Below, in pieces: positions 19,820-35,434 of a DNA stretch of 35,685 bases. The translations under genes were made by a program, and so were the position numbers. Within the stretch, counting starts at the first letter, position 1, and the number at the start of each line of letters is the position of its first letter. Source of the DNA: a bacterium (lineage in GTDB: Bacteria > UBP14 > UBA6098 > B30-G16); the NCBI GenBank assembly GCA_021162205.1, contig JAGGZE010000053.1, positions 1 to 35,685 of the forward strand, given 5' to 3'. Below the pieces are notes generated by a model that searched no databases, was not told the DNA's origin, and saw only the letters and a list, made by a program, of their open reading frames with translations.

Positions 19820-19926
19820 GGGTGGAGCCCTTCGGCTTTTCCTTGAGGGCATATTCGATACGCCCCTACATCGTGTTTTTTAATTTGTTAAATGTTATTT
19901 GGATTAATCTGGTGCAACAGGGAATT
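19820..19926 (+). repeat. 107-bp direct repeat, copy A
   Basis: This matches 20079-20185 at 106 of 107 positions, with an offset of 259 bases. It contains an interrupted palindrome (GGGCATAT tcg ATACGCCC, with one mismatch in this copy), then an AT-rich spacer. It ends inside the left part of compound hairpin E1. Short translations across it are low-quality and identical in both copies, so they are not genes. Confidence 0.9.
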
Positions 19927-19976
19927 CCAACTTTGTTGGAAGGGAAGTTGCACAAAGAAAACAGGTGAATGCCTGT
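19912..19976 (+). repeat. Compound hairpin element E1
   Basis: The outer stem is GTGCAAC (19912-19918) with GTTGCAC (19947-19953). It encloses the linker AGGGAAT and the inner hairpin TTCCAACtttGTTGGAA (19925-19941). The third hairpin, ACAGGTgaatGCCTGT (19961-19976), follows after a purine-rich linker AAAGAAA. See E2-E6 for variants. Confidence 0.75.
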
Positions 19977-20013
19977 CGCCGAGAAATTTTGATATGGTTA
20001 TTTGACTAATCAG

Positions 20014-20094
20014 GCGTTGCAATGAATTCCCCGATTTTTAATCGGGGAAGAAACGCAACGCGAAGAAAACACCCGAAGGGGTGGAGCCCTTCGG
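20014..20094 (+). repeat. Compound hairpin element E2
   Basis: The outer stem is GCGTTGC (20014-20020) with GCAACGC (20055-20061). The inner hairpin is CCCCGATTtttAATCGGGG (20029-20047), followed by the linker AAGAAA. The third hairpin is CCGAAGGG (20073-20080) with CCCTTCGG (20087-20094), which runs into copy B of the 107-bp repeat. Confidence 0.75.
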
Positions 20095-20185
20095 CTTTTC
20101 CTTGAGGGCGTATTCGATACGCCCCTACATCGTGTTTTTTAATTTGTTAAATGTTATTTGGATTAATCTGGTGCAACAGGGAATT
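20079..20185 (+). repeat. 107-bp direct repeat, copy B
   Basis: This is the second copy of the repeat at 19820-19926. Here the palindrome is perfect: GGGCGTAT (20106-20113), loop TCG, ATACGCCC (20117-20124). The single difference between the copies lies in this stem. The high identity implies a recent duplication or ongoing conversion. Confidence 0.9.
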
Positions 20186-20235
20186 GCCGATTCCATCGGT
20201 AAGAAAGGTTGCACGATAAAGACAGGCGAAGCCTG
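20171..20235 (+). repeat. Compound hairpin element E3 (leader of the 20251 gene)
   Basis: The outer stem is GTGCAAC (20171-20177) with GTTGCAC (20208-20214). The linker is AGGGAAT. The inner hairpin TTGCCGATtccATCGGTAA (20184-20202) has one G-U pair, and is followed by AAGAAA. The third hairpin is CAGGCgaaGCCTG (20223-20235). The start codon of the following gene is 15 bases further on, with AAGGGTG as ribosome-binding site, so the element would lie in its 5' leader. Confidence 0.75.
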
Positions 20236-20250
20236 CCCGAAGGGTGATAT

Positions 20251-21483
20251 ATGGGAAAGATACTTTTATTTTTATTTATAATATTCGGCTATTTTTTCCC
20301 CGATGGTTCGGGACAAGTTGCGGCTTTATCGAGTTTGCGAATCGGTTTCGGCGGCTCGATGGTCGGGCAAAAATATTCTATATTCGAACAGGACACTGTT
20401 TCGATTACAACCGAGTCTAAAATTCTTGCCGATGGCTCGTATTCAATCGATTTAAAATCGCATAAAATTTCTGGCGAATTTTCATCGGATATTGGCGATG
20501 CAAGTTTTTGGGGAAATACCAAATTAAAATGGAAATATACGCTCGGCGAATTCAATACTGAAATGTCCGAAATTGTCGAGGGTAGAGCGCCTTATAAGAA
20601 AAATACCGATGTTGTCGGTTATTTAAAGCATCGATTCAATTTAAATCTTGCTCAAAAAATCGATTTAAAAAAAATATCTGCAAGACTTTGGGTCGAGGGT
20701 AAAAGCCATTCACAAGTCGGTGAATTCTATTACGATTACGACCTTTTGCGTTCGCAATTATACTATGAATTTCCGCTATTCGATGGCGATGGCGGCATTT
20801 CGTGGAGTTATTCGTTTCGCAGTGTTCCCGATTCCGCCGATGCAAACTATGACCGAAGGCAACTCGAATTATCCTATGCAAAATTGTGGAAAGCGGGGCA
20901 TTTCAGCGATTTCGTTACAGGATATGACCGCAGACATTTCCCATCCGAGGATGAGCACGGTTCGTATTCCTCGTTTTATTTTTGGTCGAACCAATCTATT
21001 TTACTCGGCAAAATATTTATCGAGTCGAAAATCGATTTCGAGAAAAGATTATACGACAACGAGGATGATATTTTTTTCGATTATACATATCTCGAAATCG
21101 AACCGTCGATAGTAAAGAATTTCGGCAGATGGCGATTGGGAACAGGTCCACTTTATTCGGCTCGATGGGCGAAAAGCGAATATACCGGCGAAACATTCGA
21201 TGAACTCGGAATCGACATTTCGATAAATCATTTGGATTACGGTGTATTTTGGCTGTTTGCAGATATAGATTTTGGCAAGCGATTCTATTCCGATATTCCC
21301 GATACCGAGTTATTTTTCTCGAATTATTTATTTGTGGATGTTTCTGGAATGCTCTCGGTTTGGTTCACACAACGAATCCGTGCAGATTTATCGGTTGCAT
21401 ATTCGCCCGAATGGCACATGCGCAAGGATGATAATATTCAGACATCGTATATTTCACTCGCGGTGCGATACGAATTGAAATAA
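20251..21483 (+). CDS. Predicted outer-membrane beta-barrel protein
   Basis: This 410-residue protein of unknown role has a signal peptide (hydrophobic residues 3-15, cleavage probably near GSGQVAA). The rest alternates aromatic and polar residues in short amphipathic strands (for example ELSYAKLWKAG, GTGPLYSARW, RADLSVAYSPEW) and ends in a strand YISLAVRYELK, as in outer-membrane barrels. Many Tyr/Trp/Phe residues would form aromatic girdles. No named family is recognised. AAGGGTG lies about seven bases before the ATG. Compound element E3 occupies the leader, so expression may depend on it (inference). No co-directional partner follows. Confidence 0.65.
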   Translation: MGKILLFLFIIFGYFFPDGSGQVAALSSLRIGFGGSMVGQKYSIFEQDTVSITTESKILADGSYSIDLKSHKISGEFSSDIGDASFWGNTKLKWKYTLGEFNTEMSEIVEGRAPYKKNTDVVGYLKHRFNLNLAQKIDLKKISARLWVEGKSHSQVGEFYYDYDLLRSQLYYEFPLFDGDGGISWSYSFRSVPDSADANYDRRQLELSYAKLWKAGHFSDFVTGYDRRHFPSEDEHGSYSSFYFWSNQSILLGKIFIESKIDFEKRLYDNEDDIFFDYTYLEIEPSIVKNFGRWRLGTGPLYSARWAKSEYTGETFDELGIDISINHLDYGVFWLFADIDFGKRFYSDIPDTELFFSNYLFVDVSGMLSVWFTQRIRADLSVAYSPEWHMRKDDNIQTSYISLAVRYELK

Positions 21484-21513
21484 AAAACAGCCGATAATGA
21501 ACATCGATTTTCC

Positions 21514-21588
21514 TCATTGCTGTTCGGGATGAATGGCATTCAACCGTAATCGTAAGCTTTCGTGGTCATCATTTTTCATTATTCCCAT
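21514..21588 (-). CDS. Possible 24-residue small ORF downstream of ade
   Basis: The minus-strand ATG at 21588 (or GTG at 21591) opens MGIMKNDDHESLRLRLNAIH and ends PEQQ. The frame is the same as that of adenine deaminase and is open back to the ade TGA, so readthrough would add 35 residues. Adenine deaminase already has its normal C-terminus, so a readthrough product is not expected. No relative is recognised, and the ribosome-binding site is poor. Confidence 0.15.
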   Translation of the reverse strand: MGIMKNDDHESLRLRLNAIHPEQQ

Positions 21589-21621
21589 CACCTGTTCAAA
21601 TCCTCGAATAAAAGAATGATA

Positions 21622-23331
21622 TCATACGAACACATCGATGAATTGGAATTTTGCCGAATCGACAAGACCTTTATCGGTGAGTCTCAATGCTGGAATCGGC
21701 ACGAGCGATAAAAAACTCATTGCAGCGAATGGGTCCGGTAGATTGCAGCCGATATTTTTTGCGGTATCTATTAAGTTCTCGACTTTATCCTTGACGATTT
21801 CCAATGGCTGGTCGCTGACAAGTCCCGCAACTGGAAGTGGAAGTTCGGATAGCACTTTGCCATTCGATACGATTACAAGTCCGCCGCCGAGTTCGATAAC
21901 ACGGATAGCAGCGATTAGCATATCGTTATCGTTCGTCCCGAGAACGCCGAGATTATGGCTATCGTGAGCTACCGACGATGCGAATGCTCCATTATTTATA
22001 CCGAACCCGCGCACAAATCCCTTACCGATATTGCCAGATGCTCGATGTCGTTCGATTACAACGAATTTTGCGATGTCGCGTTCAGAATCGGCAACCGCAT
22101 AACCATTTTCAATTTTAGCATCATCGATAGTATTTTTTGTGACAATTTGTCCGGGAACGACTTCGATAATTCTAATTCGTTTGGCTTTCGCAGGAATTTT
22201 GAACGATTCATCGTCGAGTTTAGCGACATTCATAGTGCCTCGGATATGTATATGCTGCGTTTCAGATGGTTTGAATAACGATTTGCCATCTTTTGCAACC
22301 AGCGCACCTTTTTTGAATACCATCCGCGGTCTCGGATTTAAAATATCGTCGAACACAATAAAGTCTGCCCAATAGCGCGGGATAATCGCACCGATATTTT
22401 TGAGATTGTAAAATCTGGCAGTGTTTATTGTCGCAATTTGGAAAGCTGTTATAGGTTCGAGTCCATTTTGAATCGCAATTCGAAGATTATTATCGATATG
22501 TCCTTCGGACACAAGCGATGCTGGATGTCGGTCGTCGGTTACGAAACTGAAATTATTCCAATTCGTCTCGCTTACTAATGGCAGCAAATCCCGCATATTT
22601 TTTTCCGATGAACCCTCTCGCAAATGTATATGAAGACCGAGTCTCAATTTTTCGCGAGCCTCGTCGACAGTAGTGCATTCGTGGTCGGAGCGAGGACCAG
22701 CGAGTATGTATGCATTCAGGGCTTTTCCGCTAAGTCCAGGTGCGTGACCATCGACCACTTTATCTCTGCCTATGTGCAATTTATTCAAAACCTCACGGTC
22801 GCCAGAAATCACTCCCGGATAGTTCATCATCTCGCCGACACCGACAACGCTCGGTTCATTGATTAACAGATGTATATCGTAAGCCGAAAGTCTCGCTCCA
22901 CTGGATTCCAATTCGGTTGCAGGCACACAGGATGGCAGCATAACGAAAATGTCTAATGGAAGATTTTCACGATGTTCGAGAACATATCGAATGCCATCGA
23001 GTCCCAGCACATTTGCGAATTCGTGCGGGTCTGCGACGACGGCACCTGTTCCCAGCGGAACTACCGCTCGAGTGAATTCTGGCACGGTCAACATCGAGCT
23101 TTCGATATGAATATGTCCATCGATAAGACTCGGTGCGAGATATGCTCCATCGATGTCGATTATTTCTTTTGCATCATAATCGCCGAATCCGACAATCCTG
23201 CCATCGACAATAGCAACATTTGCAGGATGGATTTCACCCGATATCACATTTACCAATCGAGCATTCTTAATCAACAAATCGGCGGGTTTTTTGCCCAAAG
23301 CCCTGAATATTTTATCTTCTACATTTCTCAT
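21622..23331 (-). CDS. ade: Adenine deaminase
   Basis: This 569-residue amidohydrolase converts adenine to hypoxanthine and ammonia in purine salvage. Metal-site and signature motifs: DGHIHIESS near residue 72, DPHEFANVLG near 102, GEMMNYPGVI near 166, DGHAPGLSG near 194, HIHLREGSS near 232 and FVTDDRHP near 262. The Ade-specific C-terminal domain has NLGVLGTNDNDM, GGGLVIV, LPLPVAGL and DPFAAMSFLSL, so the gene is full length. The ATG at 23331 is preceded by AGGTGGGG; a GTG nine bases upstream would sit inside that site. Element E4 abuts the start, and its third hairpin includes the ribosome-binding site. Confidence 0.94.
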   Translation of the reverse strand: MRNVEDKIFRALGKKPADLLIKNARLVNVISGEIHPANVAIVDGRIVGFGDYDAKEIIDIDGAYLAPSLIDGHIHIESSMLTVPEFTRAVVPLGTGAVVADPHEFANVLGLDGIRYVLEHRENLPLDIFVMLPSCVPATELESSGARLSAYDIHLLINEPSVVGVGEMMNYPGVISGDREVLNKLHIGRDKVVDGHAPGLSGKALNAYILAGPRSDHECTTVDEAREKLRLGLHIHLREGSSEKNMRDLLPLVSETNWNNFSFVTDDRHPASLVSEGHIDNNLRIAIQNGLEPITAFQIATINTARFYNLKNIGAIIPRYWADFIVFDDILNPRPRMVFKKGALVAKDGKSLFKPSETQHIHIRGTMNVAKLDDESFKIPAKAKRIRIIEVVPGQIVTKNTIDDAKIENGYAVADSERDIAKFVVIERHRASGNIGKGFVRGFGINNGAFASSVAHDSHNLGVLGTNDNDMLIAAIRVIELGGGLVIVSNGKVLSELPLPVAGLVSDQPLEIVKDKVENLIDTAKNIGCNLPDPFAAMSFLSLVPIPALRLTDKGLVDSAKFQFIDVFV

Positions 23332-23337
23332 TTTCCC

Positions 23338-23407
23338 CACCTTTTAGGTGTTTTTTGTGCGTTGCGTTTTTCTTAATCCCGATAAGTCGGGACATTCCCT
23401 GCAACGC
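23338..23407 (-). repeat. Compound hairpin element E4 (leader of ade)
   Basis: In the ade sense the outer stem is GCGTTGC (23407-23401) with GCAACGC (23365-23359). The linker is AGGGAAT. The inner hairpin TCCCGActtaTCGGGA (23392-23377) is followed by ATTAAGAAA. After ACAAAAAA the third hairpin is CACCTaaaAGGTG (23350-23338). The right arm of that hairpin is the start of AGGTGGGG, the ade ribosome-binding site. Confidence 0.75.
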
Positions 23408-23428
23408 CCGATTAATCAAATAACTTTT

Positions 23429-23464
23429 AACCATTATATATAACAGAATGGTTTTCTCAAAACC
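23429..23464. other. AT-rich hairpins between E4 and the ade-leader-like copy
   Basis: AACCATT near 23429 pairs with AATGGTT near 23446-23452. The latter overlaps a second hairpin, GGTTTTctcAAAACC (23451-23464). They are mutually exclusive. No gene is visible here. Confidence 0.35.
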
Positions 23465-23493
23465 CTTTTTCAGAAAAGTTTGAATATTTTCCC

Positions 23494-23534
23494 CACCTTT
23501 AAGGTGTCTCTTCGCTGGCGTTTGCCTGTTTTTA
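23494..23534 (-). repeat. Partial element E7: copy of the ade-leader hairpin
   Basis: In the minus sense this has AAAAACAGGC, GCCAG and then CACCTTAAAGGTG followed by GGGGAAAAT. It closely repeats the third hairpin and ribosome-binding site of ade, but continues ATTC instead of a start codon plus gene. The nested stems seen in E1-E5 are absent. It looks like a duplicated or truncated leader. Confidence 0.5.
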
Positions 23535-23623
23535 TTGCGAAATGTTGTCAAAGAGCAGGTTGTCGCCACAGTATAGGGTATTCCCTATCCTAATATTTCC
23601 ACACGGAGCGGAAGGAAAGATGA

Positions 23624-24871
23624 TTAATCGGTTTCAATTATGAGAGACTTCGGTTTATCATCTTTTCTACGTAGTCTACCGCTTACTGTTATTATTTTGT
23701 TTTTATCCAAACTACGTGTGTATTTCGACTCTTCTATAGGTTCATCAGTTTCAATTTTAATCGACACTTTCGGCGTTCTATTCTCTTCAATTATATATGC
23801 CTTGCCTTTTCCAGTTTCCGTATTTAACTGATAAATATGGATTCGGTATTCCGTTAAACTATCATCTACGGTATAGATTTCACTCTGAATAATCTCTTTG
23901 GTTTTTTCAAACCGGTCATAATCTTTTCTTTCTATTTTAGTAATCGGTGAAATACCCGAAAATTCTATTGAATTATAAGAACAACCTATGTCTTTTGTCA
24001 TATCAGATAATATTTCTTGAGTATCGATTATTTTATCAAGAAATAATTCTTCATAGTCCTCGGGAACAAGAAAATGGTATTCTCTTATTAGTTGTTTATA
24101 TTCTTGAATTATATTCTGTGCTTCTTCGGGTATTTCCTTCTTTATTATAATATCTATAGAATCAGGGAGTTTGGAAATACAATAGCTTAAATACTTATCT
24201 AATAGGATAGATATTTTATTTTCTAAATCTTTATTATAGTCTATAAGGAAACCAGTGCTATCACCGGGATATACGAGTTCAGTATTTAAAACTATTTCGA
24301 AACTCGCCGGATTCGTTGCTTGTATATAAGTTTTCCCATTTAATCCCATAGATTTAATTAAACTAATGCCGTTTTCTACAAAAGCCTCAGTCTTATTAGC
24401 TATATTGCTAAAAATGCTCGTTAAAACACGATGTTTTGCCGCTTCGAAACCTTCTAAGTGAACTCTATGTGTAAGATTCGGATATAATTGGCATGAATAA
24501 CTTGGACAGAACGAATTTTCTGTAGGTAGATAATCTTTAGGTATATCTTCGAAATCAATCGGGAAAGCTTTCATGTAAGAATTATCGAAAGCTTTTTCCA
24601 AAATAAAGAGGTCCGATGTTTTCTTCATTATTTCCAGATAGGATAACTCCCGCTTGAAAAACTTGGACAATAAATCGAAATAGACTACCGCATGGAAATG
24701 CCAGTCAATTTTTTTATCGTAGTCTTCATCGATGGATGAACCAAGTATCCAATTCCCGAAACTATTTTTTCCGCAATATAAAATCGGCTCGTCGTCGAAT
24801 AATATATCTTTATATTCGCAAGTTATTATCGGATAACTAACTGCTTTAGTTGTGCGATTGAATTCGAACAT
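23624..24871 (-). CDS. Unknown protein (DUF6575-like N-terminus), second gene of a cassette
   Basis: This 415-residue cytosolic-looking protein has no signal peptide or membrane segment. The first 100 residues (YKDILFDDEPILYCGKNSFGNWIL, split as DDEPILYCGK and SFGNWIL) recall the DUF6575 pattern, in which a 'display/price' strand of the type DGPLLF-x-N-x-G precedes a helix-rich stretch; this is from memory and uncertain. The middle is helical and acidic; the C-terminal 80 residues form a strand-rich Lys/Glu domain (TVSGRLRRKDD). Its ATG overlaps the stop of the upstream gene (TAATG). Base use is more AT-rich and less CGAT-biased than in neighbours, pointing to acquired DNA. No function can be assigned. 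Confidence 0.6.
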   Translation of the reverse strand: MFEFNRTTKAVSYPIITCEYKDILFDDEPILYCGKNSFGNWILGSSIDEDYDKKIDWHFHAVVYFDLLSKFFKRELSYLEIMKKTSDLFILEKAFDNSYMKAFPIDFEDIPKDYLPTENSFCPSYSCQLYPNLTHRVHLEGFEAAKHRVLTSIFSNIANKTEAFVENGISLIKSMGLNGKTYIQATNPASFEIVLNTELVYPGDSTGFLIDYNKDLENKISILLDKYLSYCISKLPDSIDIIIKKEIPEEAQNIIQEYKQLIREYHFLVPEDYEELFLDKIIDTQEILSDMTKDIGCSYNSIEFSGISPITKIERKDYDRFEKTKEIIQSEIYTVDDSLTEYRIHIYQLNTETGKGKAYIIEENRTPKVSIKIETDEPIEESKYTRSLDKNKIITVSGRLRRKDDKPKSLIIETD

Positions 24872-25311
24872 TATGTGAATACCTCTATGTTAATAAGGTT
24901 TATTTTTTCTAAACTAAAACCATCTGATTTAAATAAACTGCAATGATAAGGCGGTCTATTTTGCCCTTTTTTGACAACCCCTGCGTCTTTTATTAACTTG
25001 AAAGTGCAATATTTTTTCGGCAATCTTTCTCCCGCACGAATTCTCTTTATCTCATTCGCTGTTGAAAACTTCTCCTTATAATAATCAGTTATATCTTCAT
25101 GATTTCTATTTATAGAAATACTTCTCCATTCGCATTCTTTATTGTCTTTTATAGGTCGTCTAGGCATTCCTCGTTCCCAATGCGATTGGAAATCGTATTC
25201 TTTAACTTCTTGGCCAGCAAGCTTCCTTGTAAAAATAGTGCTCGTATCTTCTTTGCAATCATCGGTTATGCAATTATAATTAAGATCTCTGTGTAACTCG
25301 TCAAACGTCAT
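24871..25311 (-). CDS. Unknown small protein, first gene of a cassette
   Basis: This 146-residue, highly charged, soluble protein opens MTFDELHRDLNYNCITDDCKED. Features that look conserved in type are DFQSHWERGMPRRP near 42, RLPKKYCTFKLIKDAGVVKKG near 95-115 (split here as RLPKKYCTFK and LIKDAGVV), and a C-terminal YHCSLFKSDGFSLEKINL. Three or four Cys and His residues could bind metal, but no classical motif is formed. GGAGGAG lies upstream of the ATG, and a promoter lies at 25390-25418. Its TAA overlaps the next gene's ATG, so the two are made together. Toxin-antitoxin or defence roles are possible but unsupported. Confidence 0.6.
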   Translation of the reverse strand: MTFDELHRDLNYNCITDDCKEDTSTIFTRKLAGQEVKEYDFQSHWERGMPRRPIKDNKECEWRSISINRNHEDITDYYKEKFSTANEIKRIRAGERLPKKYCTFKLIKDAGVVKKGQNRPPYHCSLFKSDGFSLEKINLINIEVFT

Positions 25312-25389
25312 ATAAATACTCCTCCATTTTTAATTTCGAGTTATTTTTATTCATCAAAAAAATACTCTTTCTAATTAATCTACGCAATC

Positions 25390-25418
25390 ATTATATCACA
25401 CTTATTCAAAAAACCCAA
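25390..25418 (-). promoter_or_regulatory. Promoter of the two-gene cassette
   Basis: On the minus strand TTGGGT (25413-25418) and a perfect TATAAT (25390-25395) have 17-base spacing. It leaves about 70 bases of leader before the first cassette gene. Confidence 0.5.
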
Positions 25419-25445
25419 GAAAAAAATGAGGTGAGGGGAAAATTG

Positions 25446-25575
25446 TTTGAACCGGTGATACCTATGATGAAATGATTTCGCATGATGGGGTGTTCAGATG
25501 GGATACACCTTGTAGGTGTAGCCAATCATAAAGTGTAGTCCATCTCAAAGAAGGGCTACACTTGCCGGTTCAGAA
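25446..25575. other. Structured intergenic element with alternative stems
   Basis: TGAACCGG (25448-25455) pairs with CCGGTTCA (25565-25572) and encloses several stems. TACACCttgtaGGTGTA spans 25504-25520. AGATGG (25496-25501) can pair with CCATCT (25540-25545). Competing with these, AAGTGTAG (25531-25538) pairs with CTACACTT (25556-25563), and GTGTAGCC (25516-25523) pairs with GGCTACAC (25554-25561). It could be a structured leader of the cassette, a 3' structure of the PmbA-like gene or a mobile palindromic element. No known RNA family is recognised. The rest of 25312-25614 shows no gene. Confidence 0.4.
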
Positions 25576-25614
25576 TGTTTCATTAAAATTGCTTCCGTTC
25601 ATAAATCCCTATAT

Positions 25615-26973
25615 TTATCCACCGAATTCGGTAGCGCTGGAGAAATTGAATTTTTCCACAAGCATAGCGGGAGTGTAGGCGCCGCCGAAGAAAAATCCCG
25701 ATACAAGTTTCTGTTTTTTGCCGATTGCGATGATATTATTGAAAGTATCGAGTGTGCTTTGAGTAAATCGCAAATTCTTCACAGGATATGCGATTTCGCC
25801 ATTCTCGATTGCGAAAAGACCATCTCGAGTCATTCCAGTAATTGTGAGTTTAGTTAGCTCAGAAACATTAGTATAGTGAAAATGAGTTACCAAAAGCCCA
25901 TTTTTAACCGATTTTACCATATCTTTTAGCGATGTCTCGCCGGGTTCGATGACGACATTAAGAGGAATAGCTCCCCATCGGTTCGGTTGCGGCAAACCGT
26001 GTCCTGTCGGCTCGATATTCATTTTTTGAGCTGTCCAGCGGTCGGCTACGAGATTTGTCAAAATACCATTTTTTACGAGTTCGACTTTTCGACGGGGAAC
26101 ACCCTCGAAATCGAATGGAATACCCGACAAATTCTCATTATAAGCGTCGTCTACGATTGTAAGCTTGTCGTCGAATACTTTTTGCCCGAGCTTCCCCGTT
26201 AGCAAACTTTGTCCCTCGAGATGCATTCTCGCATTAAAACCGTATATCGACATAAATGAAATAAAATCGGCGACAGCAGCGGGAGTCAGAACGACAGTAT
26301 ATTGCCCCGATTTAATATCCCGTGGATTTTGATTTCTTTTAGCGATATCGATTGCATCGGCAATATCGGATTGTGGATTTGTTTTACCTATCGACCAGTT
26401 AATCGATTCAGCCCATCCAGTCCCTGTTTTTCCTTCGACAGTCAAACTGAATTCAAAATTTGTGCCATCCCAATATGCGAATAATCCATTAGAATTTGCA
26501 AGACCGAGCGCCGATGTCGAATTTTCAACGATACCAGCCGAACTAAGGTTTTCCTTTTCGCATGCTGAAACCACATTGGAAACTATATTCACTCGTTTCT
26601 CGGGACTAATTTCTGATGTTTCGGTGCAAAATCGCGCGATTTCATCATATTTTTGCATTCCAAGCATAGGTAATATCTCATCGTTATCACTCGAATGCTC
26701 GACTATCTCACGGGCTTTTTGCACAGCTTTGGCGATTGTTCCATCATCGGAGAATAGATTGATAGCGACTTTGCCATCTTTTTTCCCTCGTTGAAGTCTA
26801 ATCGATAGCGCACCATTGCTGACAACGACATTTTGATGAATCACATTATTTGCAAATCGTGTCAAAGCAGAATCCGAAAAATTCAAACTTACCTCGGCAT
26901 CGAATCCATCTAAAAGCGAAAATACTTTATCCGATATTCGCTTAAAATTATTTTGAACTTGTTCCCTGTTCAT
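25615..26973 (-). CDS. PmbA/TldE-like metalloprotease-family protein
   Basis: This 452-residue protein belongs to the TldD/PmbA family, whose E. coli members form a TldD-TldE heterodimer that degrades or matures small peptides such as microcin B17 and CcdA. It shows the N-terminal family domain (AEVSLNFSDSALTRFANNVIHQ), the region VVLTPAAVADFISFM, RRKVELVKNGILTNLVADRWTA, and the C-terminal VTHFHYTNVSELTKLTITGMTRDG. I see no HExxxH, so this is the TldE/PmbA-like non-catalytic type. A tldD partner is not in this window. It is probably cotranscribed after the acyl-CoA ligase (14-base gap). Confidence 0.88.
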   Translation of the reverse strand: MNREQVQNNFKRISDKVFSLLDGFDAEVSLNFSDSALTRFANNVIHQNVVVSNGALSIRLQRGKKDGKVAINLFSDDGTIAKAVQKAREIVEHSSDNDEILPMLGMQKYDEIARFCTETSEISPEKRVNIVSNVVSACEKENLSSAGIVENSTSALGLANSNGLFAYWDGTNFEFSLTVEGKTGTGWAESINWSIGKTNPQSDIADAIDIAKRNQNPRDIKSGQYTVVLTPAAVADFISFMSIYGFNARMHLEGQSLLTGKLGQKVFDDKLTIVDDAYNENLSGIPFDFEGVPRRKVELVKNGILTNLVADRWTAQKMNIEPTGHGLPQPNRWGAIPLNVVIEPGETSLKDMVKSVKNGLLVTHFHYTNVSELTKLTITGMTRDGLFAIENGEIAYPVKNLRFTQSTLDTFNNIIAIGKKQKLVSGFFFGGAYTPAMLVEKFNFSSATEFGG

Positions 26974-26987
26974 TGAAACCCCCTATT

Positions 26988-28670: not shown

Positions 28671-28751
28671 AAAAAAATTCCTTAATCGAAATAATTTACA
28701 GCGCAATCTCCGATAAAATATATAGTCGAATAGGAAATAGCAAAAACAATT

Positions 28752-28780
28752 TTGTCGATATTTTAAAATATCGATAGATT
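28752..28780 (+). promoter_or_regulatory. dapA promoter with operator-like spacer
   Basis: TTGTCG (28752-28757), 17 bases, TAGATT (28775-28780). The spacer is almost entirely filled by the 20-bp palindrome at 28755-28774. Confidence 0.45.
28755..28774. promoter_or_regulatory. Perfect 20-bp palindrome, candidate operator
   Basis: TCGATATTTTAAAATATCGA is perfectly self-complementary. It lies in the divergent region between the acyl-CoA ligase and dapA genes, between the -35 and -10 of the dapA promoter. Genome-wide richness in TCGATA lowers its weight. Confidence 0.4.
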
Positions 28781-28847
28781 ATTTATTGCGAAAGACAAAG
28801 AAATTTAACAAATTTAAAATTGGGAAAAATTAACATTGGAGGTGAAA

Positions 28848-29720
28848 ATGTTTTCAGGTTCGATTCCAGCACTTGCGACACCATTTAATAAATCGGGTAA
28901 TATATGCAAGCGAACATATAGAAAGCTGATTAGATGGCATATCGAACAGGGCAGCGATGGAATTCTTGTCGCAGGATGCACAGGCGAAAGTTTTACATTG
29001 ACCGAGAATGAGAGGATTAAATTATCCGAAATTGCTATCGATACTGCTAACGGAAAAATTCCAGTGATTATCGGCACGGGAGCATCCAGCACGAGTGTAG
29101 CAGTCGAACGGACAAAAATAGCAAAAAAACTCGGTGCCGATGCTGTTTTGGTTATCACTCCATTCGGGAATAAGCCATCGCAGGAAGCACTCGTTCGATA
29201 TTATAATGAAATCGCAGATGTCGGTATTCCCGTGATTTTATATAATGTGCCATCTCGAACAGGAACAGATATTCAAGCTGAAACCGTTGTGAAGCTTGCG
29301 AAACATCCGAATATCGTTGCAATAAAAGAAGCATCGGGGAAACTCGACCAGGTGAGTGCGATATTAAAAAATACTCCCAAAAATTTCACTGTTCTTTCCG
29401 GCGACGATGCATTGACACTGCCGATGCTCGCTCTCGGTGCCAAAGGTGTGATTTCGACTACTGCGAACATTGCACCTAATGAATTTTCTCGGATGGTATC
29501 GTCATTTTTCGAGGGTGATATTCAGACAGCGAGAAAAATTCATTTAGAAATGTTCCCTGTGATAAAAGCATTATTTATCGAGGGCAACCCCGTTCCGCTG
29601 AAATTTGCGATGTCCGAAATGGGACTTTGCGAAAATAGACTTCGACCACCACTTGTTTTAGCATCGGATGCTACAAGAAAAATTATTAAAAAAGTATTGA
29701 AATCCGCGGGGCTTTTGTAG
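28848..29720 (+). CDS. dapA: 4-hydroxy-tetrahydrodipicolinate synthase family protein
   Basis: This is a 290-residue class I aldolase barrel of the DHDPS/NAL family. DapA condenses pyruvate with aspartate semialdehyde for lysine and peptidoglycan synthesis. Seen: IPALATPF, GCTGE (43-47), ITPFGNKPSQE (103-113), YNVPSRTG (132-139) with Tyr132 and Arg137, and the Schiff-base lysine K160 in AIKEASG. Two residues of the E. coli proton relay are changed: Thr44 is Cys and Tyr107 is Gly. The substrate-binding arginine is kept, which favours DapA over other family members, but another aldolase activity is possible. TGGAGGTG fixes the ATG at 28848; a TTG at 28836 lies within it. Confidence 0.82.
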   Translation: MFSGSIPALATPFNKSGNICKRTYRKLIRWHIEQGSDGILVAGCTGESFTLTENERIKLSEIAIDTANGKIPVIIGTGASSTSVAVERTKIAKKLGADAVLVITPFGNKPSQEALVRYYNEIADVGIPVILYNVPSRTGTDIQAETVVKLAKHPNIVAIKEASGKLDQVSAILKNTPKNFTVLSGDDALTLPMLALGAKGVISTTANIAPNEFSRMVSSFFEGDIQTARKIHLEMFPVIKALFIEGNPVPLKFAMSEMGLCENRLRPPLVLASDATRKIIKKVLKSAGLL

Positions 29721-29740
29721 ATAACAGAATTGTTTCATAG

Positions 29741-29785
29741 AAATAAAAAACCCCGAGTTTTTAAACTCGGGGTTCTTATTTGTGC
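29741..29785. terminator. Bidirectional terminator between dapA and the barrel gene
   Basis: A 10-bp stem CCCCGAGTTT (29751-29760) pairs with AAACTCGGGG (29763-29772) across a TT loop. An A-rich run precedes it and T-rich sequence follows, so it can serve both converging genes. Confidence 0.85.
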
Positions 29786-29798
29786 ATAATTTATAAAA

Positions 29799-30980
29799 TC
29801 ATTCCCAATTGTAGCTCGCTGAAAGCTGAACTGCATTGACAGTTCTCCCACTGAGGAACCAAAATCCCTCGAATAAATCGTCGTCTGCAAATGTCAGGTC
29901 GAGATTGAAATCGTGGAATTTAATACCTGCTCCAAACGATGCGAAAACAGTATTAGTTTCGTTAAAACTCATAACCGAATCGATGTCGTTTTCGGTATGA
30001 GTAATCGAACCGAATGATTTTGATATTCCCGTTCTAAGATAAAGCCAATCCGTTGTTGGAATTTCGGTTGAAATCGATAATTGAGGTAATGTTAGTGTTT
30101 TGTCTTCGGTTTTTGCAGTCGAAACCAGTTCATCTTTAATATTTAACATATTCATTCCGACACCGACCGAAACAACACCATCATCGAGAATTTGTGTATT
30201 AACTGCGCAACCGATGTCTAAATTCATATTTGTGTAATCGCCGAAATCGGTTACATTACCGGAATAATCGTTTATTTCTCTGCTATGGCTGAATGTAGAA
30301 AATGCGATAGCTGGCACGATTTTTACATTATCGGTCGCAGGTAAAAATGCTCTAAATTTAAAACCGATTTCCATTCCGCCAGTTGTTTCATCGGTGTAAG
30401 TCTGGTTAGATGAATTTTTTGCTTCTGCCGATAGTCCATTCAAATCGACATTAAAAGATGTTGCAGCTACACCACCGAGAATATCCATGCCGGCGGATGC
30501 TCGAATAGAAAGCACACTCGATTTATATTCATTGTCGGTATTATTAGTATTGTCGGTTTGTTTTTCGCCATAAGATGCACGATAAACTCCAAGTCCAAGT
30601 TTTACAGAACCGAGATTGTAAGCGCCCCAAAGATTGATTCCCGGATTTGGAGATGTTGTTCCCATATCGTTAGCTATTGAGAAAATTTGACCGTCTGTTC
30701 TTCTAACTGCGGCGCCTATTACCAAATTTTCACCGAGTCCAAGATTGAAAAGTCCCCATTGTCCGAAAGGTGTTGCGCCACCGCCAGTATAATTTCCCAA
30801 TTCGAATTGAACTTGGTTTTTATAGCTCAATGCGGCAACAGGTGTATAAATCATATTGTTAGCATCGGAAATATATTTTGCTCCATATCCAAACGCAGAC
30901 AGTCTCGCATCGGTGGCAAATACCGACGATGCCATCATAACAATCCCGATAACAACCAGTAATAATGTTGCTTTCCTCAT
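29799..30980 (-). CDS. Predicted outer-membrane beta-barrel protein with signal peptide
   Basis: The 393-residue protein begins with a clear signal peptide (MRKATLLLVVIGIVMMASSVFA, cleaved after the second-last Ala-x-Ala-like FA; shown here in full length of 22 only as MRKATLLLVV plus IGIVMMASSVFA). The mature part has repeating amphipathic strands with Gly/Asn turns (NLVIGAAVRR, LGLGVYRASYG, VGVGMNMLN, LRTGISKSFG) and ends AVQLSASYNWE, with aromatic residues near the C-terminus as in outer-membrane barrels. It resembles the PorV/FadL-like barrels of FCB bacteria in style, but no family is certain. AAGGAG precedes the ATG at 30980. It has a strong promoter and terminator, suggesting an abundant monocistronic product. 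Confidence 0.7.
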   Translation of the reverse strand: MRKATLLLVVIGIVMMASSVFATDARLSAFGYGAKYISDANNMIYTPVAALSYKNQVQFELGNYTGGGATPFGQWGLFNLGLGENLVIGAAVRRTDGQIFSIANDMGTTSPNPGINLWGAYNLGSVKLGLGVYRASYGEKQTDNTNNTDNEYKSSVLSIRASAGMDILGGVAATSFNVDLNGLSAEAKNSSNQTYTDETTGGMEIGFKFRAFLPATDNVKIVPAIAFSTFSHSREINDYSGNVTDFGDYTNMNLDIGCAVNTQILDDGVVSVGVGMNMLNIKDELVSTAKTEDKTLTLPQLSISTEIPTTDWLYLRTGISKSFGSITHTENDIDSVMSFNETNTVFASFGAGIKFHDFNLDLTFADDDLFEGFWFLSGRTVNAVQLSASYNWE

Positions 30981-31011
30981 ACTTTCTCCTTGTTTGTGGT
31001 TAAACACCCGA

Positions 31012-31040
31012 TAAATAAACTATGATTTTAATATTGTCAA
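31012..31040 (-). promoter_or_regulatory. Strong promoter of the barrel gene
   Basis: On the minus strand a consensus TTGACA (31035-31040), 17 bases, TATTTA (31012-31017). The leader is about 25 bases and carries AAGGAG. Confidence 0.6.
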
Positions 31041-31068
31041 TAAAAAAAGATGGTATTATACAATTAAC

Positions 31069-31097
31069 TTGACTATGTGATAATTAGGTAGTAATTT
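31069..31097 (+). promoter_or_regulatory. Possible promoter of the polysaccharide cluster
   Basis: TTGACT (31069-31074), 17 bases, TAATTT (31092-31097). If used, transcription begins near 31104 and the TTG start at 31097 is impossible; the next ATGs at 31139 or 31154 would be used instead. Confidence 0.4.
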
Positions 31098-31690
31098 TGG
31101 AAATAACAAATGACCGACTGAATTTAATAAATTGGGCGATGATTGGGAAAAAGATGAAAATAGAATCTGAAAAAACATACCAGTCTGTTCTTGGATATCT
31201 ATGGAAAACTAATCCAGTGGAATTCACATATCCAAAATTTCTTAACTCGTTCAGGAATGTTTTATTGATTATGCCGAGAAACCAGCAATTTCATAACCAA
31301 TTGAACAGATGGCGTGAGAAAATTATATTTGCACTCGGAACGAAAAGTATTACAATGCTTTCGATTGGAACACAAATCGAGTATTTGCGCGAATGGTCCC
31401 AGAAACCTATGCTTTTTACCGATACAGATATAAATTTCGCAGGGATAGTATCCTCGAGAATTATTAAGGATATTATGAAAAACAAATTTAAGTTCGCTAT
31501 CGATTTATCCCCCGATTTCGATTTAATTACGGCGCAAATCGCACTGCGAGCGAAAATCCCGACAAGAATCGGACTCGTATCGGGACAGACTGTGAATATC
31601 GGGAGGAAATATTTCAATATACTCGTTTCTGGGGATTTCACAGATGGATATGAACAATTGACAAAGCTGCTATCCGCTAAAGGAAGGTGA
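31097..31690 (+). CDS. GT9/DUF6913-like protein, first gene of polysaccharide cluster
   Basis: This protein has up to 197 residues. The core FRNVLLIMPRNQQ, then FKFAIDLSPDFDLITAQIALRAKIPTRIGL (in pieces: FAIDLSPDFD, IALRAKIPTRIG) and YFNILVS, recalls the N-terminal Rossmann half of ADP-heptose-type (GT9) glycosyltransferases and the short DUF6913 proteins. It lacks the C-terminal nucleotide-sugar domain, so catalysis alone is doubtful. The start is uncertain: the TTG at 31097 has a weak AGG, while ATG at 31139 or 31154 (the latter after GGGAAAAAG) fits the promoter better. It is followed after six bases by a GT2 enzyme, which suggests a shared role in surface glycan synthesis. Confidence 0.55.
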   Translation: MEITNDRLNLINWAMIGKKMKIESEKTYQSVLGYLWKTNPVEFTYPKFLNSFRNVLLIMPRNQQFHNQLNRWREKIIFALGTKSITMLSIGTQIEYLREWSQKPMLFTDTDINFAGIVSSRIIKDIMKNKFKFAIDLSPDFDLITAQIALRAKIPTRIGLVSGQTVNIGRKYFNILVSGDFTDGYEQLTKLLSAKGR

Positions 31691-31696
31691 TTTTAG

Positions 31697-32911
31697 ATGG
31701 CTCGAAAAATAAAAGTATCGATTATCGTGCCTGCATACAATGAAGAAGAAAATATTCTTCCGCTGTTCGAGGCCTTCGCAGATTTGCAGAAAAATATAAA
31801 TTTTAATTTCGAACTTATAGTAGTCGATGATGGTTCTACCGACAAAACCGCCGAACGCACTAAAAATCTTTTGCGGCATTTTCAGTTTGCATCGCTGATT
31901 TCGTATTCTGCGAATCGAGGGAAAACTTATGCAGTTCTTCAGGGATTCGAGATATCTAAGGGCGATTATATCGTTATATTCGATGCCGACCTTCAGTTCG
32001 ACCCGAAAGATATTCCACCGATGGTCGAAAAACTCGATAGGGGAGCAGATGTTGTCGCGGGATATAAGGTCGGGAAATATCAAAAACCGCTCGTCTCTGG
32101 AGTATATAATTTATTTGGCAAACTGCTTTTTGGTGTGCCGGTAAAAGATATGAATGCGCTGAAAACGGTTCGTCGCGAGGTGCTGGAACAGATGCCATTT
32201 CGCCCCGATTGGCATAGATATATCGTGATATGGGCGCATAAAAATGGTTTCAAAATCGTTCAGCATCCGGTGAAACTTCGACCGAGAAAATGGGGTAAGT
32301 CCAAATACCGCGGTTTCGGAAGAATTTTAATCGGATTTTTCGATATGATGTCGGTATGGTTTCAGTTGAAATTTGTTCGCCGACCGATGTTGTTTTTCGG
32401 TTCTTTGGGATTATCGACTTTCTTTTTAGCATTCATTATCGGTATAGTGGCTTTAATTCTGCGATTCGGTTATAATCTTGGATATCGTCCACTTTTGACA
32501 CTTATCGCGATGCTTGCGAATATCGGTCTCCTTTTGATTATCGGCGGTTTTCTCGGTGAAATGGTCGAAAATATTTCGGGAAAAGTTAGGCATATCGAGG
32601 AAAAAATGAGTTCGACTAAAAATGAGAAAATTCAATCGAAACCATATAATGAAAATCGAAATTCCGATGATAAAAATCGAAAAAGACGAGATGATATGCA
32701 CTCGAAAAAACCGAATAGTTCGCGAAAGAATTCGAGTCGGAATCGGAATATTTCCGATGTGAAACCAATCGAGTCGGTGGAAAAAATAGATAAAGTCGAA
32801 CCATCTAATATCGAGCGGAAAAGTATGAATTCCGATGAAACAGGCGTCGATAATAAAAAATCCAATGAAATCAACTGGGGCAGACGCAAAAGAAAATCGT
32901 CAAAATCTTAG
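31697..32911 (+). CDS. Glycosyltransferase family 2 with two membrane helices and basic tail
   Basis: This 404-residue enzyme is of the dolichyl-phosphate-mannose-synthase/ArnC style, transferring a sugar to a lipid carrier. Motifs: SIIVPAYNEE (8-17), VVDDGSTDKT (42-51), NRGKTYAVLQGF (73-84) and the metal site DADLQFDP (96-103). Two membrane helices lie near 235-255 and 268-290. From about residue 296 a roughly 110-residue tail of Ser, Asn, Lys, Arg, Asp and Glu follows, ending RRKRKSSKS. It is predicted disordered and is not part of the family. The ATG follows AAGGTG by several bases. It lies between the GT9-like and deacetylase genes. Confidence 0.85.
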   Translation: MARKIKVSIIVPAYNEEENILPLFEAFADLQKNINFNFELIVVDDGSTDKTAERTKNLLRHFQFASLISYSANRGKTYAVLQGFEISKGDYIVIFDADLQFDPKDIPPMVEKLDRGADVVAGYKVGKYQKPLVSGVYNLFGKLLFGVPVKDMNALKTVRREVLEQMPFRPDWHRYIVIWAHKNGFKIVQHPVKLRPRKWGKSKYRGFGRILIGFFDMMSVWFQLKFVRRPMLFFGSLGLSTFFLAFIIGIVALILRFGYNLGYRPLLTLIAMLANIGLLLIIGGFLGEMVENISGKVRHIEEKMSSTKNEKIQSKPYNENRNSDDKNRKRRDDMHSKKPNSSRKNSSRNRNISDVKPIESVEKIDKVEPSNIERKSMNSDETGVDNKKSNEINWGRRKRKSSKS

Positions 32912-32926
32912 ATTTCAAACTAACCG

Positions 32927-33754
32927 ATGCAATATCCTATCCCAAATACCTGTATATTAACATTCGATGTCGAGGAGTGGTATCACGGAGCGTATCCCGG
33001 ATACGATTATTCGATGCTTAATACAGATATTGTTCGAGTTGTTCCGATGATGAAATCGATTGTCGGGATACTTGCTAGAAACAATGCCACTGCGACATTT
33101 TTTGTTCTCGGCGAGGTCGCTCAAAAACATCCCGAAATTGTGAAAATGATACTCGATGGTGGAAATGAGGTGGCATCGCACGGTTTCCATCATCTGCGAG
33201 CTGGAATACTCGGTGAAAAGGGATTTGCGGATGATTTAATTCACTCGAAAGAAATTTTGGAATCTATTTCGGCAAAAAAAATAAATGGATTTCGTGCCGC
33301 TAATTTTTCTATTTCGCCTCAAAAAACTCCATGGGCATTCGATACATTGAAAAAACTCGATTTCGAATACGATTCGAGCATTTTCCCTGCGATTGCCTAT
33401 TATGGTGGTTCACCCAAAGCGAATCGTTATATTCATAATTTGGCGGGTATCGAGGAATATCCACTTTCAGCATCGAGTATATTGGGTCTTCGTGTTGCAT
33501 TTTCAGGTGGATTCTATTTCAGAGTTATGCCGAAATTCTTTATATGGCATGGTATCAAACATTATTGGAAAAATAATTTTCCACCGGTGTTATATTTGCA
33601 TCCAAAAGATATCGATTCACAAACGCCGTCGTTGCCATTGGGATTTATTAAAAATTTCACTCATAAGGGACTCGCCGATAAGGCATTTGCGAAATTTGAA
33701 TATTTTCTAAAGCGCTGCAAATTCGTATCTATCGAGAAATGGCGTGCTAAATAA
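32927..33754 (+). CDS. Polysaccharide deacetylase (NodB fold)
   Basis: This 275-residue carbohydrate esterase family 4 protein removes N-acetyl groups from a polysaccharide. It begins directly at the fold with LTFDVEEWYHG (catalytic Asp14-Val-Glu), then TATFFVLGEVAQKHPEI and SHGFHH (His85 and His89, metal ligands), FRAANFSI, and YPLSASSILG. The layout and 275-residue length match the exopolysaccharide-associated DUF3473-type deacetylases. No signal peptide is present, as in that group. It closes the three-gene cluster and converges with the aconitase-family gene, leaving two bases between stops and no terminator. Confidence 0.87.
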   Translation: MQYPIPNTCILTFDVEEWYHGAYPGYDYSMLNTDIVRVVPMMKSIVGILARNNATATFFVLGEVAQKHPEIVKMILDGGNEVASHGFHHLRAGILGEKGFADDLIHSKEILESISAKKINGFRAANFSISPQKTPWAFDTLKKLDFEYDSSIFPAIAYYGGSPKANRYIHNLAGIEEYPLSASSILGLRVAFSGGFYFRVMPKFFIWHGIKHYWKNNFPPVLYLHPKDIDSQTPSLPLGFIKNFTHKGLADKAFAKFEYFLKRCKFVSIEKWRAK

Positions 33755-33756
33755 AA

Positions 33757-35013
33757 TTATAAAAATTCTCTCGGGTCGGTTATTTTACCTGCCGATGCAC
33801 TTGCCGCAGCGGTATATGGACTCGCGAGATATACAAACGATTTGGGATTGCCCATTCTGCCTTTGAAATTTCGGTTCGTTGTCGATATGCAAACCTCGTC
33901 ATCGGCAAGAACGCCCTCGTGAGCTCCAAGACAGGGTCCGCAGCCGGGATTCATAAGTATCGCACCTGCCGATAAAAGTTTTTCGACTGTGCCATCGAGA
34001 AGGATTTCCATCAAAATTTTGCTACTCGCTGGGAAAAGCAAAAGTCTTGTGCCTTTGGCAATTTTGCGTCCATCGAGAATTTCGGCTGCCATTCGGAAAT
34101 CCTCGGCTCGTCCATTGGTGCAGGAGCCGATTAGAACTTGATTCACTTTCTTGCCGGCGACATCTTTAACTGGAACGACATTATCGACAGTATGCGGAGC
34201 CGCAACCACTGGAACGATATTTTCGGCATTATATTCGAGAACTTTTTCGTATTCGGCATCGTCATCTGCAAAAATAGAAATATATCGCTTTTTAGCTCGA
34301 TTTTCGAGATATTCATCGGTTTTATTATCGGGCGGAATAATTCCAAATTTTGCACCGGCTTCGACCGCCATATTTGAAAGCACCATTCTCGATGCTATCG
34401 TCATATTATCGATTGTATCGCCGTAAAATTCCAGCGATTTATAAAGTGCGCCATCGGCACCGATATCACCGATAATCGTGAGTATCAAATCCTTCGACGA
34501 GACACCTTTGGGCAATGTATTAGAAATTATGATTTTAATCGATTGCGGCACCATCAGCCACATTTCGCCTGTTGCCCATACCGCAGCGACTTCACTTCTG
34601 CCGATACCGGCACTCGCAGCACCGAATGCACCATAAGTCGTTGTATGTGAATCGGCACCAAGAACGAGTGTGCCGGGTAATGCAAATCCTTCCTCGGAAA
34701 AAACCTGATGGCATATTCCGCGACCGATGTCATAAAAATGCTCGATATTATTTAGCTCGACAAATTCGCGAATTTGCTTATGATTGTTAGCATATTGCGC
34801 TGTCGATGGCGGAACAGTATGGTCGAGAACGATTACAGACTGTTGCGGATTTTTCACTTTATCGACAGACAATCGAGCGAATTTTTTGGATATCGCTGCA
34901 GTATTATCGTGTGATAGAACATAATCGGGAATTACTGTAACTATTTGCCCGATTTTCACTGTTTCATTTCCACTGTGATTTGCTAAAATTTTTTGTGCTA
35001 TAGTTTGCCCCAT
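33757..35013 (-). CDS. leuC: 3-isopropylmalate dehydratase / homoaconitase large subunit
   Basis: This 418-residue [4Fe-4S] hydro-lyase is the large subunit of the archaeal-type LeuC/HacA group, which isomerises 2-isopropylmalate to 3-isopropylmalate (leucine pathway) or a related acid. The cluster cysteines are C298 (GSCTNGR), C358 and C361 (NPGCGPCLGAHEG). GADSHTTTYGAFG (119-131) and the substrate region SHDNTAAI are present. This short form needs a separate small subunit (LeuD), which is not adjacent on either side. AAAGGAAA precedes the ATG. Substrate choice among isopropylmalate, homoaconitate and related acids cannot be settled from sequence; the leuC symbol is provisional. Confidence 0.85.
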   Translation of the reverse strand: MGQTIAQKILANHSGNETVKIGQIVTVIPDYVLSHDNTAAISKKFARLSVDKVKNPQQSVIVLDHTVPPSTAQYANNHKQIREFVELNNIEHFYDIGRGICHQVFSEEGFALPGTLVLGADSHTTTYGAFGAASAGIGRSEVAAVWATGEMWLMVPQSIKIIISNTLPKGVSSKDLILTIIGDIGADGALYKSLEFYGDTIDNMTIASRMVLSNMAVEAGAKFGIIPPDNKTDEYLENRAKKRYISIFADDDAEYEKVLEYNAENIVPVVAAPHTVDNVVPVKDVAGKKVNQVLIGSCTNGRAEDFRMAAEILDGRKIAKGTRLLLFPASSKILMEILLDGTVEKLLSAGAILMNPGCGPCLGAHEGVLADDEVCISTTNRNFKGRMGNPKSFVYLASPYTAAASASAGKITDPREFL

Positions 35014-35132
35014 TGTTTTTCCTTTCCGATTGAGTTATTTTTTCCAAATATATTTATTATATAAAAATAGAATAGAAAAAATTTGAAAACAAGAAATATT
35101 TATATGAACTATTTAATAGTTTTTATTTTCAC
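35014..35132. other. Divergent AT-rich region between leuC and tRNA-Ser
   Basis: No gene is visible. A perfect 7-bp inverted repeat AACTATTtAATAGTT (35107-35121) lies upstream of the tRNA-Ser promoter. A leuC promoter is not clear; TTGTTT-17-TATTTT on the minus strand near 35065-35093 is a weak candidate. Confidence 0.3.
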
Positions 35133-35161
35133 TTGACAAAAGTCGATGAAGATTTTATCTA
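35133..35161 (+). promoter_or_regulatory. Promoter of tRNA-Ser
   Basis: A consensus TTGACA (35133-35138) is followed after 16-17 bases by TTATCT/TATCTA (35155-35161). The mature tRNA begins about 12 bases downstream. Confidence 0.6.
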
Positions 35162-35172
35162 AATAAACATTT

Positions 35173-35263
35173 GGAGAGGTGGCCGAGTATGGCTGAAGGC
35201 AACCGCCTGCTAAGCGGTTGAGGGGGTAAAACTCCTCCCAGGGTTCAAATCCCTGCCTCTCCG
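35173..35263 (+). tRNA. tRNA-Ser (anticodon GCT)
   Basis: This class II tRNA has 91 bases. Acceptor GGAGAGG pairs with CCTCTCC, with discriminator G. The D arm contains TGGCCGAGTATGGCTGAAGGC (one base beyond limit omitted: GGCCGAGTATGGCTGAAGGC). The anticodon arm is ACCGC-CTGCTAA-GCGGT with anticodon GCT. A long variable arm (GGGGG...CTCCTCCC) and the T arm GGGTTCAAATCCC follow. CCA is not encoded. Confidence 0.95.
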
Positions 35264-35283
35264 CAGGCATTCGCCTGTTTTTT
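35264..35283 (+). terminator. Rho-independent terminator of tRNA-Ser, part of element E5
   Basis: CAGGCattcGCCTG (35264-35277) is followed at once by six T. It begins on the base after the tRNA discriminator. The same hairpin is the third hairpin of compound element E5, so a repeat supplies the terminator. Confidence 0.75.
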
Positions 35284-35327
35284 GTGCGTTGTTTTCCTCC
35301 CGACAATGTCGGGATTCCCTGCAACGC
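35264..35327 (-). repeat. Compound hairpin element E5
   Basis: In minus sense the outer stem is GCGTTG (35327-35322) with CAACGC (35291-35286). The linker is AGGGAAT, and the inner hairpin is TCCCGACattGTCGGGA (35314-35298), followed by GGAAAA. ACAAAAAA leads to the third hairpin CAGGCgaatGCCTG (35277-35264). Confidence 0.75.
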
Positions 35328-35359
35328 CAGATTAATAAGTATTTCAACTAATTAAAGAG

Positions 35360-35434
35360 CCGAAGACTCCTCTTCGGGTATCTTCTTTGTATTGTGTCTT
35401 TCTTAATCCCAATGAGTCGAAATCGGGAGACAAT
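35360..35434 (-). repeat. Divergent compound hairpin element E6
   Basis: In minus sense the outer stem is AGACAAT/ATTGT-TCT type (35430-35434 with 35391-35395, one bulge). A weak inner TCCC/GGGA pairing and the shared linker ATTAAGAAAG follow, then ACAAAGAAGATA and a strong third hairpin CCGAAGAggagTCTTCGG (35377-35360). It keeps the E-element order with new stem sequences. Confidence 0.5.

Follow-up and report, generated by a model that had tools for sequence, protein, structure and literature searches.

The 35,685-nt contig JAGGZE010000053.1 of the bacterial assembly GCA_021162205.1 (hereafter the window; contig C21 of a 2.57-Mb assembly in 185 contigs) carries five good copies and one divergent copy of a compound hairpin unit. 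We propose, with a probability of about 0.65, that these units belong to a family of small non-autonomous DNA repeats of the repetitive extragenic palindromic (REP)/bacterial interspersed mosaic element (BIME) class, mobilised as a folded single strand and kept at gene ends. As far as the searched libraries show, the family is undescribed, with nested hairpins, no tag, a terminator of its own and a covarying non-canonical loop. Throughout, the F strand is the orientation in which a first-pass annotation of the window had read each unit, and the R strand is its complement.

Anatomy of the unit

On F, a unit begins with an outer arm and continues through a left linker, an inner hairpin, a right linker, the second outer arm and an A-rich linker to a third hairpin that closes it, ~62-75 nt or more in all. 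With two nested stems, an internal loop of 6+5 nt and an extra hairpin, it exceeds the single 20-40 bp palindrome of a REP, which is simple or has one small bulge. Four versions of the outer arm were found (GCGTTGC, GCATTGC, GTGCAAC and GGGCGAC), the inner hairpin has 98 distinct sequences in the parsed set, and the third hairpin is CACCCGAANGGGTG or CAGGCGAANGCCTG. The third-hairpin motif nearly always lies within a unit (117 of its 137 occurrences), and in tandem arrays (e.g. three units in L037) the repeat period is outer arm to third hairpin. An AT-rich leader stands ahead of most intergenic copies and is missing from copies within genes. An extra nested hairpin, TCCCGAYTTCATCGGGATT, is present in the right linker of 28 of 208 parsed units (~13%), and the nested form also occurs in a relative, G005 (L065). 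This nested hairpin, TCCCGAYTTCATCGGGATTMAG, occupies one fixed right-linker place (e.g. L047:1840-1931 and L038:4223-4315), is seen with all three left-linker types described below, and has few occurrences outside model matches, mostly in degenerate units.

Family size and spread among genomes

Allowing up to two mismatches, GCGTTGCAGGGAAT is found 152 times, versus 10 times for the reversed control. The covariance model R1 (71 positions, 20 pairs) was seeded with 15 ungapped copies, the window copy at 20171-20235 among them. On copy-rich contigs (310 kb) searched together with the window, it gave 112 matches (E up to 0.1). A second set, made up of 60 further contigs chosen by number order and again the window (724 kb), yielded 138 matches at E<0.01, so that the genome search suggested in the first-pass annotation brought up many further copies. 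From the density on sampled contigs, the genome total is roughly 500 copies per 2.57 Mb, which may be low because the contigs chosen earlier for density were left out.

Confident copies are present in two genera of the same family (G001 and G005), and a third genus (G002) yielded a single weak but plausible match; counts in relatives are lower bounds, the first 82 to 150 candidates having been scored per genome. Under the same candidate-limited scoring, nine other class members gave no matches with the family model. In G001:C62 (L059, L293), three units form a tandem array beside a tRNA gene, with the outer arms shortened in the later units. A strict DNA pattern found nothing in the GTDB genome collection, from which records near the window's genome may have been left out. 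A tRNA-synthetase query gave the lineage no more than a loose position, near Zixibacteria, Calditrichota, KSB1 and Gemmatimonadota relatives. In viral contigs, 21 pattern matches were rejected, as all were without the unit layout and in unrelated sequence. Rfam gave no family match, with tRNAs alone at gathering scores and nothing credible at E up to 10, which agrees with the earlier remark that no described family was recognisable.

All three stems covary, with F favoured as the folding strand

Among 136 distinct matches, standard pairs fill 96.5% of the stem pair cells (73.0% after shuffling), and 19 of the 20 stem pairs show changes on both sides. The stem covariation score is 0.522 versus 0.176 for shuffled data, a level reached in 0 of 500 shuffles, and double-changed cells number 594 versus 190. 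Since structure guided the alignment and the copies share descent, more weight goes to the slid controls, whose score is at most 0.063, and to the separate parsing of units than to these raw numbers. All three stems covary far above shuffles, and together with the ~500 copies this strong covariation excludes chance as the origin of the pattern.

Which strand folds is indicated by the mismatches. Distinct outer and inner stem variants hold 56 G·T versus 28 A·C on F (binomial p 0.003, with variants partly dependent on one another); a G·T on F equals a C·A on R. Folding energies are slightly better on F than on R in all five good window copies, which, as single-stranded DNA, fold 4.5 to 5.8 standard deviations below shuffles (z -4.5 to -5.8). 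The G·T excess favours F as the folding strand, and the purine-rich loop likewise points to F.

The linkers covary as three matched pairs

The first-pass annotation had described conserved linkers between arms that change in pairs. The arms behave as described; the linkers, however, themselves covary. Left linkers are drawn from AGGGAAT, AAGGAAT and AATGAAT and right linkers from AGGAA, AGGGA and AGAAA, each with one further variable base, and they combine as AGGGAAT/AGGAA (type 1), AAGGAAT/AGGGA (type 2) and AATGAAT/AGAAA (type 3). Among 134 copies with both linkers in these sets, 58, 26 and 38 are matched as types 1, 2 and 3, and 12 are unmatched. After removal of duplicates, 115 of 127 copies are concordant versus 46 expected. 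Stratified shuffles leave the rule intact: among copies sharing an outer arm, 104 of 115 are concordant versus 48 expected, and among those sharing an inner hairpin sequence, 44 of 52 versus 25 expected (maximum of 36 in 5000 shuffles). With both arm and inner hairpin fixed, cases are few, and 20 of 23 are concordant versus 11.5 expected (p about 0.001). Left and right linker share 1.03 bits of mutual information, versus 0.05 bits for left linker and outer-arm class. In the other genera, parseable copies obey the rule with one or two near misses. The linkers thus covary largely independently of the surrounding stems, and the earlier inference of selection on RNA or single-stranded DNA structure stands.

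Left and right linkers show no complementarity, which speaks against reading their covariation as a guide and its cleavage site. Written as facing strands, type 1 places GGGA opposite GGAA, and type 2 has the same strands exchanged. Type 2 may therefore be the type 1 loop rotated by 180 degrees, as would be expected if a folded single strand held a G·A-rich internal loop, and type 3 would offer a T-A pair and tandem G·A pairs. The (GGA)2 zipper of centromeric DNA is a lead for such a loop, and a literature search returned no paper on that motif. Flip-related linker pairs of this kind are a rare natural test of selection on a non-canonical nucleic-acid motif versus selection on sequence.

The third hairpin has a terminator layout on R and lies at gene ends

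On R, the third hairpin is followed by a run of T: at least 5 T occur in the next 8 nt in 168 of 170 parsed copies (99%), versus 7% on F. This layout makes the third hairpin, together with its A-tract, a predicted intrinsic terminator of the R strand. Placement was examined with genes called by a home-made hexamer caller, so gene-copy distances are approximate. Only 8 copies lie inside called genes versus 177 in gaps, with 84% of the sequence coding, and the density per kb of gap is about 2.7 between convergent genes, 1.4 between same-direction genes and 0.45 between divergent genes. Of 664 genes, 68 have a unit in R orientation just 3' of the stop codon, whereas 9 have one in F orientation there. 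A stop codon (TAA or TAG) directly adjoins the third hairpin in 22 copies and lies in the hairpin loop in others. Stable RNA genes show a similar arrangement, with 3' ends no more than 13 nt from the third-hairpin end of a unit in R orientation for the window tRNA, for tRNAs in L047 (two), L049, L053 and L150 (one apiece), and for the tmRNA of L152. Neighbouring copies are head-to-head in 43 cases versus tail-to-tail in 10. The copy number, intergenic placement and head-to-head pairs support the REP/MITE-like option among those that the first-pass annotation had offered.

Two window copies had earlier been placed in the leader of a gene, with a structured RNA motif as one possible identity. 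A leader-RNA role is not supported for the family: orientation is even in same-direction gene contexts (57 versus 55), and the preferred place is the gene 3' end, in the opposite orientation. In the sampled genome, roughly one gene in ten is followed by a copy positioned to end its transcript, so the dispersed repeat appears to have taken over part of the transcription-termination layer.

Copies inside genes

Several proteins with a C-terminal NPFNSS...YDLRGN domain carry in-frame units, in the same loop each time. The encoded peptides are, for example, AGVAGNSVSTEGKQRNEMTLKV or GIAMNSRFHREETQCNKNTLKV, and the domain may be a secretion signal or FlgD-like, judged by motif only. Other paralogues have a different palindrome at that loop, or nothing. 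The in-frame copies could be either separate insertions or one insertion followed by exchange. The loop is also a hotspot for unrelated in-frame palindromic repeats (L084-L113; e.g. L035:12574-13221 and L151:4095-5615), which include the terminator-carrying family and palindromes of the GTGGGAG/GTAGGGG type. These in-frame copies, the linker covariation and the opposite-strand terminator all go beyond the first-pass annotation.

A possible route of mobility

F can fold into the outer stem, the purine-rich G·A internal loop, the inner stem, the A-tract and a small GC hairpin. In the proposed mechanism, this folded single strand would be recognised by an HUH (Y1) nuclease that reads structure, as in IS200/IS605 and RAYT/REP systems; because the fold would be what is read, compensatory changes would keep a unit mobilisable. 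Units landing just after a gene end would persist, their built-in terminator making them harmless or useful there. We infer both the single-strand (HUH) mechanism and single-stranded DNA as the selected form. Taken further, selection might keep a non-Watson-Crick DNA loop with three interchangeable solutions, two of them one and the same G·A/GG motif turned through 180 degrees. The loop would then serve as recognition code for a single-strand transposition system that needs no tag and carries ready-made terminators to gene ends; this extension is tentative, and we would sooner bet against it.

A candidate enzyme and a candidate insertion site are available. The genome encodes one intact Y1 (IS200-like) protein of 136 aa (contig C129; Pfam PF01797), which matches IS608 and related TnpA structures, and a unit ends about 35 nt upstream of its gene start. 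In G005, a host palindrome occurs with a unit (L325, L305 and L309) and without one (L297 and L313), and in the filled version a short spacer has given way to precisely the stretch between outer arm and third hairpin, both included. Also in G005 (L295, L296, L301 and L319), CCCACGACTTNAGTCGTGGG hairpins resembling IS200/IS605 ends are mixed into host palindromes. A truncated canonical RAYT on contig C149 was rejected as mobiliser, since GTAGGAG palindromes of its own flank it and it more likely belongs to those. The truncated RAYT-like gene at L035:9500-9960, with GTAGGAG/CTCCTAC palindromes at its borders, makes up a second REP system in the genome, and a third Y1 match (C114) lies within a mosaic region.

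Several observations weigh against mobilisation. The Y1 gene is single-copy and vertically inherited, with orthologues in 14 of 17 class genomes (its own included), some of which are without detected copies, and no unit lies near the orthologues in G001 and G005; on these grounds the link between the Y1 protein and the units is weak. At the G005 site, the unit has displaced a spacer, which is more than a simple interruption. A clean target-site pattern did not emerge, the flanks of the third hairpin being mixed apart from stop codons, and the GTAG/CGTC tag is essentially absent (5 tag matches in 201 copies × 6 stem feet). With GC skew taken as a proxy for the direction of replication, copy orientation shows no bias. 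The copies are moreover kin by descent, and their counts are not independent events.

Alternative explanations

The units could instead be an RNA element, a terminator with a structured 3' untranslated RNA kept by the host for ending transcription, for message stability or for ribosome stalling at stops, in which case the covariation would reflect an RNA fold. The good terminator on R, the strong orientation bias at gene ends, the stop codons adjoining the hairpin and the use of tRNA and tmRNA ends all speak for it. On R, however, the compound hairpin lies past the terminator and its loop is pyrimidine-rich, whereas the excess of G·T over A·C favours folding of F, which is antisense to the terminated gene. 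The even orientation in same-direction contexts and the copies within coding sequence also count against an RNA element, and we regard it as unlikely. Template switching at quasi-palindromes, together with gene conversion, might keep arms complementary as a mutational by-product, with no structural selection. Stems are indeed often perfect, the inner hairpins are highly diverse, and the combination of outer arm, linker pair and inner hairpin is largely reshuffled from copy to copy. Template switching cannot, however, co-change linkers that are not complementary, as is seen within identical inner hairpins and across genera, nor would it favour G·T over A·C on one strand. This makes a by-product quite improbable.

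We give very little credence to a DNA-uptake signal doubling as a terminator, as in Neisseria and Haemophilus: copy number, terminator positions and head-to-head pairs would fit, but known signals are short, nearly exact words, whereas these units preserve their fold while the sequence changes. Next to none is given to an integron attC-type recombination site or cassette border, the recombination substrate among the earlier suggestions. The general design of attC is similar, in that a folded strand combines paired arms with unpaired linkers that are conserved, yet the right arm (GCAACGC, GCAATGC or GTTGCAC) has no GTTRRRY core, most of the contigs sampled have copies dispersed among ordinary genes, and tandem units come without cassettes. 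A REP/BIME-class repeat mobilised as a folded single strand is thus the reading that we prefer.

Copies in the window

The five good copies lie where the first-pass annotation had placed them and fold as it described, with model matches of 47-75 bits. Copy 1 (19912-19976, + strand; model 19909-19977, 68.7 bits; fold z -4.8) has the outer stem GTGCAAC/GTTGCAC, the discordant linkers AGGGAAT/AGGGAA, an inner hairpin, an A-tract and the third hairpin ACAGGTGAATGCCTGT. Copy 2 (20014-20083, +; model 20011-20085, 69.9 bits; z -5.8) has the outer stem GCGTTGC/GCAACGC and AATGAAT/AGAAAC, a concordant type 3. Copy 3 (20171-20235, +; model 20168-20237, 74.6 bits) repeats the outer stem of copy 1 with discordant AGGGAAT/AGAAAG, and ends 15 nt before the start of an open reading frame at 20251. 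Copies 1 and 3 are thus among the 12 exceptions to the linker rule, which copies 2 and 5 obey. An AT-rich leader (19886-19911, +; ...GTTATTT.GATTAATCNG) precedes copy 1, and a GTAG-tagged palindrome unlike the units, GTAGGGGCGTATCGAATACGCCC (20106-20128, - strand), lies between copies 2 and 3. The palindrome, the leader and the first bases of copies 1 and 3 are held in a 107-nt direct repeat, 99% identical (19820-19926 and 20079-20185). Because this repeat spans the leader and their first bases, copies 1 and 3 may have arisen by local duplication.

Copy 4 (23338-23407, -; model 23335-23410, 46.9 bits) shares the outer stem of copy 2 and stands upstream of an adenine deaminase reading frame (Pfam PF13382) on the same strand. 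The linker rule is inapplicable to it because its right linker, ATTAAGAAAAA, is longer. Copy 5 (35264-35327, -; model 35262-35330, 67.9 bits) has the outer stem GCGTTG/CAACGC and AGGGAAT/AGGAAA, a concordant type 1, and its third hairpin adjoins the 3' end of a tRNA at 35173-35263 (Rfam tRNA). On the other strand this hairpin (35264-35277, +) reads CAGGCATTCGCCTG then TTTTTTGT, which, with the family-wide T-run count, gives it the shape of an intrinsic terminator directly 3' of the tRNA. The sixth copy (35360-35434, -), noted earlier as divergent, is best called a degenerate remnant, with 11.6 bits in a 170-base search with filters off and a fold z of -1.6.

Comparison with known systems

REPs lie between convergent and same-direction genes near 3' ends, supply stop codons from their termini, form head-to-head dimers with a conserved spacer and occur inside genes (PMC3733652). 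The units resemble REP/BIME/REPIN elements with RAYT in their hundreds of copies, intergenic 3'-end placement, stop codons, head-to-head dimers and in-gene copies. They differ in having no GTAG (or GTGG)/CGTC tag 5' of the stem, in their two nested stems, covarying G·A-rich loop and own terminator hairpin, and in that no transposase gene is clearly paired with them. The TnpA-REP of E. coli requires an unpaired bulge in the REP stem and recognises one strand only (PMC8266576), which is the kind of mechanism proposed here. In IS200/IS605 elements, an HUH Y1 transposase reads single-strand hairpins that lie subterminally, and a guide sequence sits at the foot of the hairpin (PMC6006769). The single-strand hairpin is a likeness to these elements and their non-autonomous derivatives; the units differ in that no complementary guide/cleavage pair is visible and no full-length parent element was found.

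Rickettsia palindromic elements are palindromic units tolerated in frame in protein genes (PMC3733652). In-frame insertion is common to both, as a likeness of behaviour, but here coding copies are a small minority and a terminator hairpin is carried. The third hairpin with its T-run on R has the layout of Rho-independent terminators, but is only a module within a longer repeat, and it is the whole repeat that has been dispersed. Most described REPs combine a tag with a simple palindrome; the present family suggests that a REP-like repeat may work untagged, recognised through the shape of its G·A pairs and carrying a terminator of its own.

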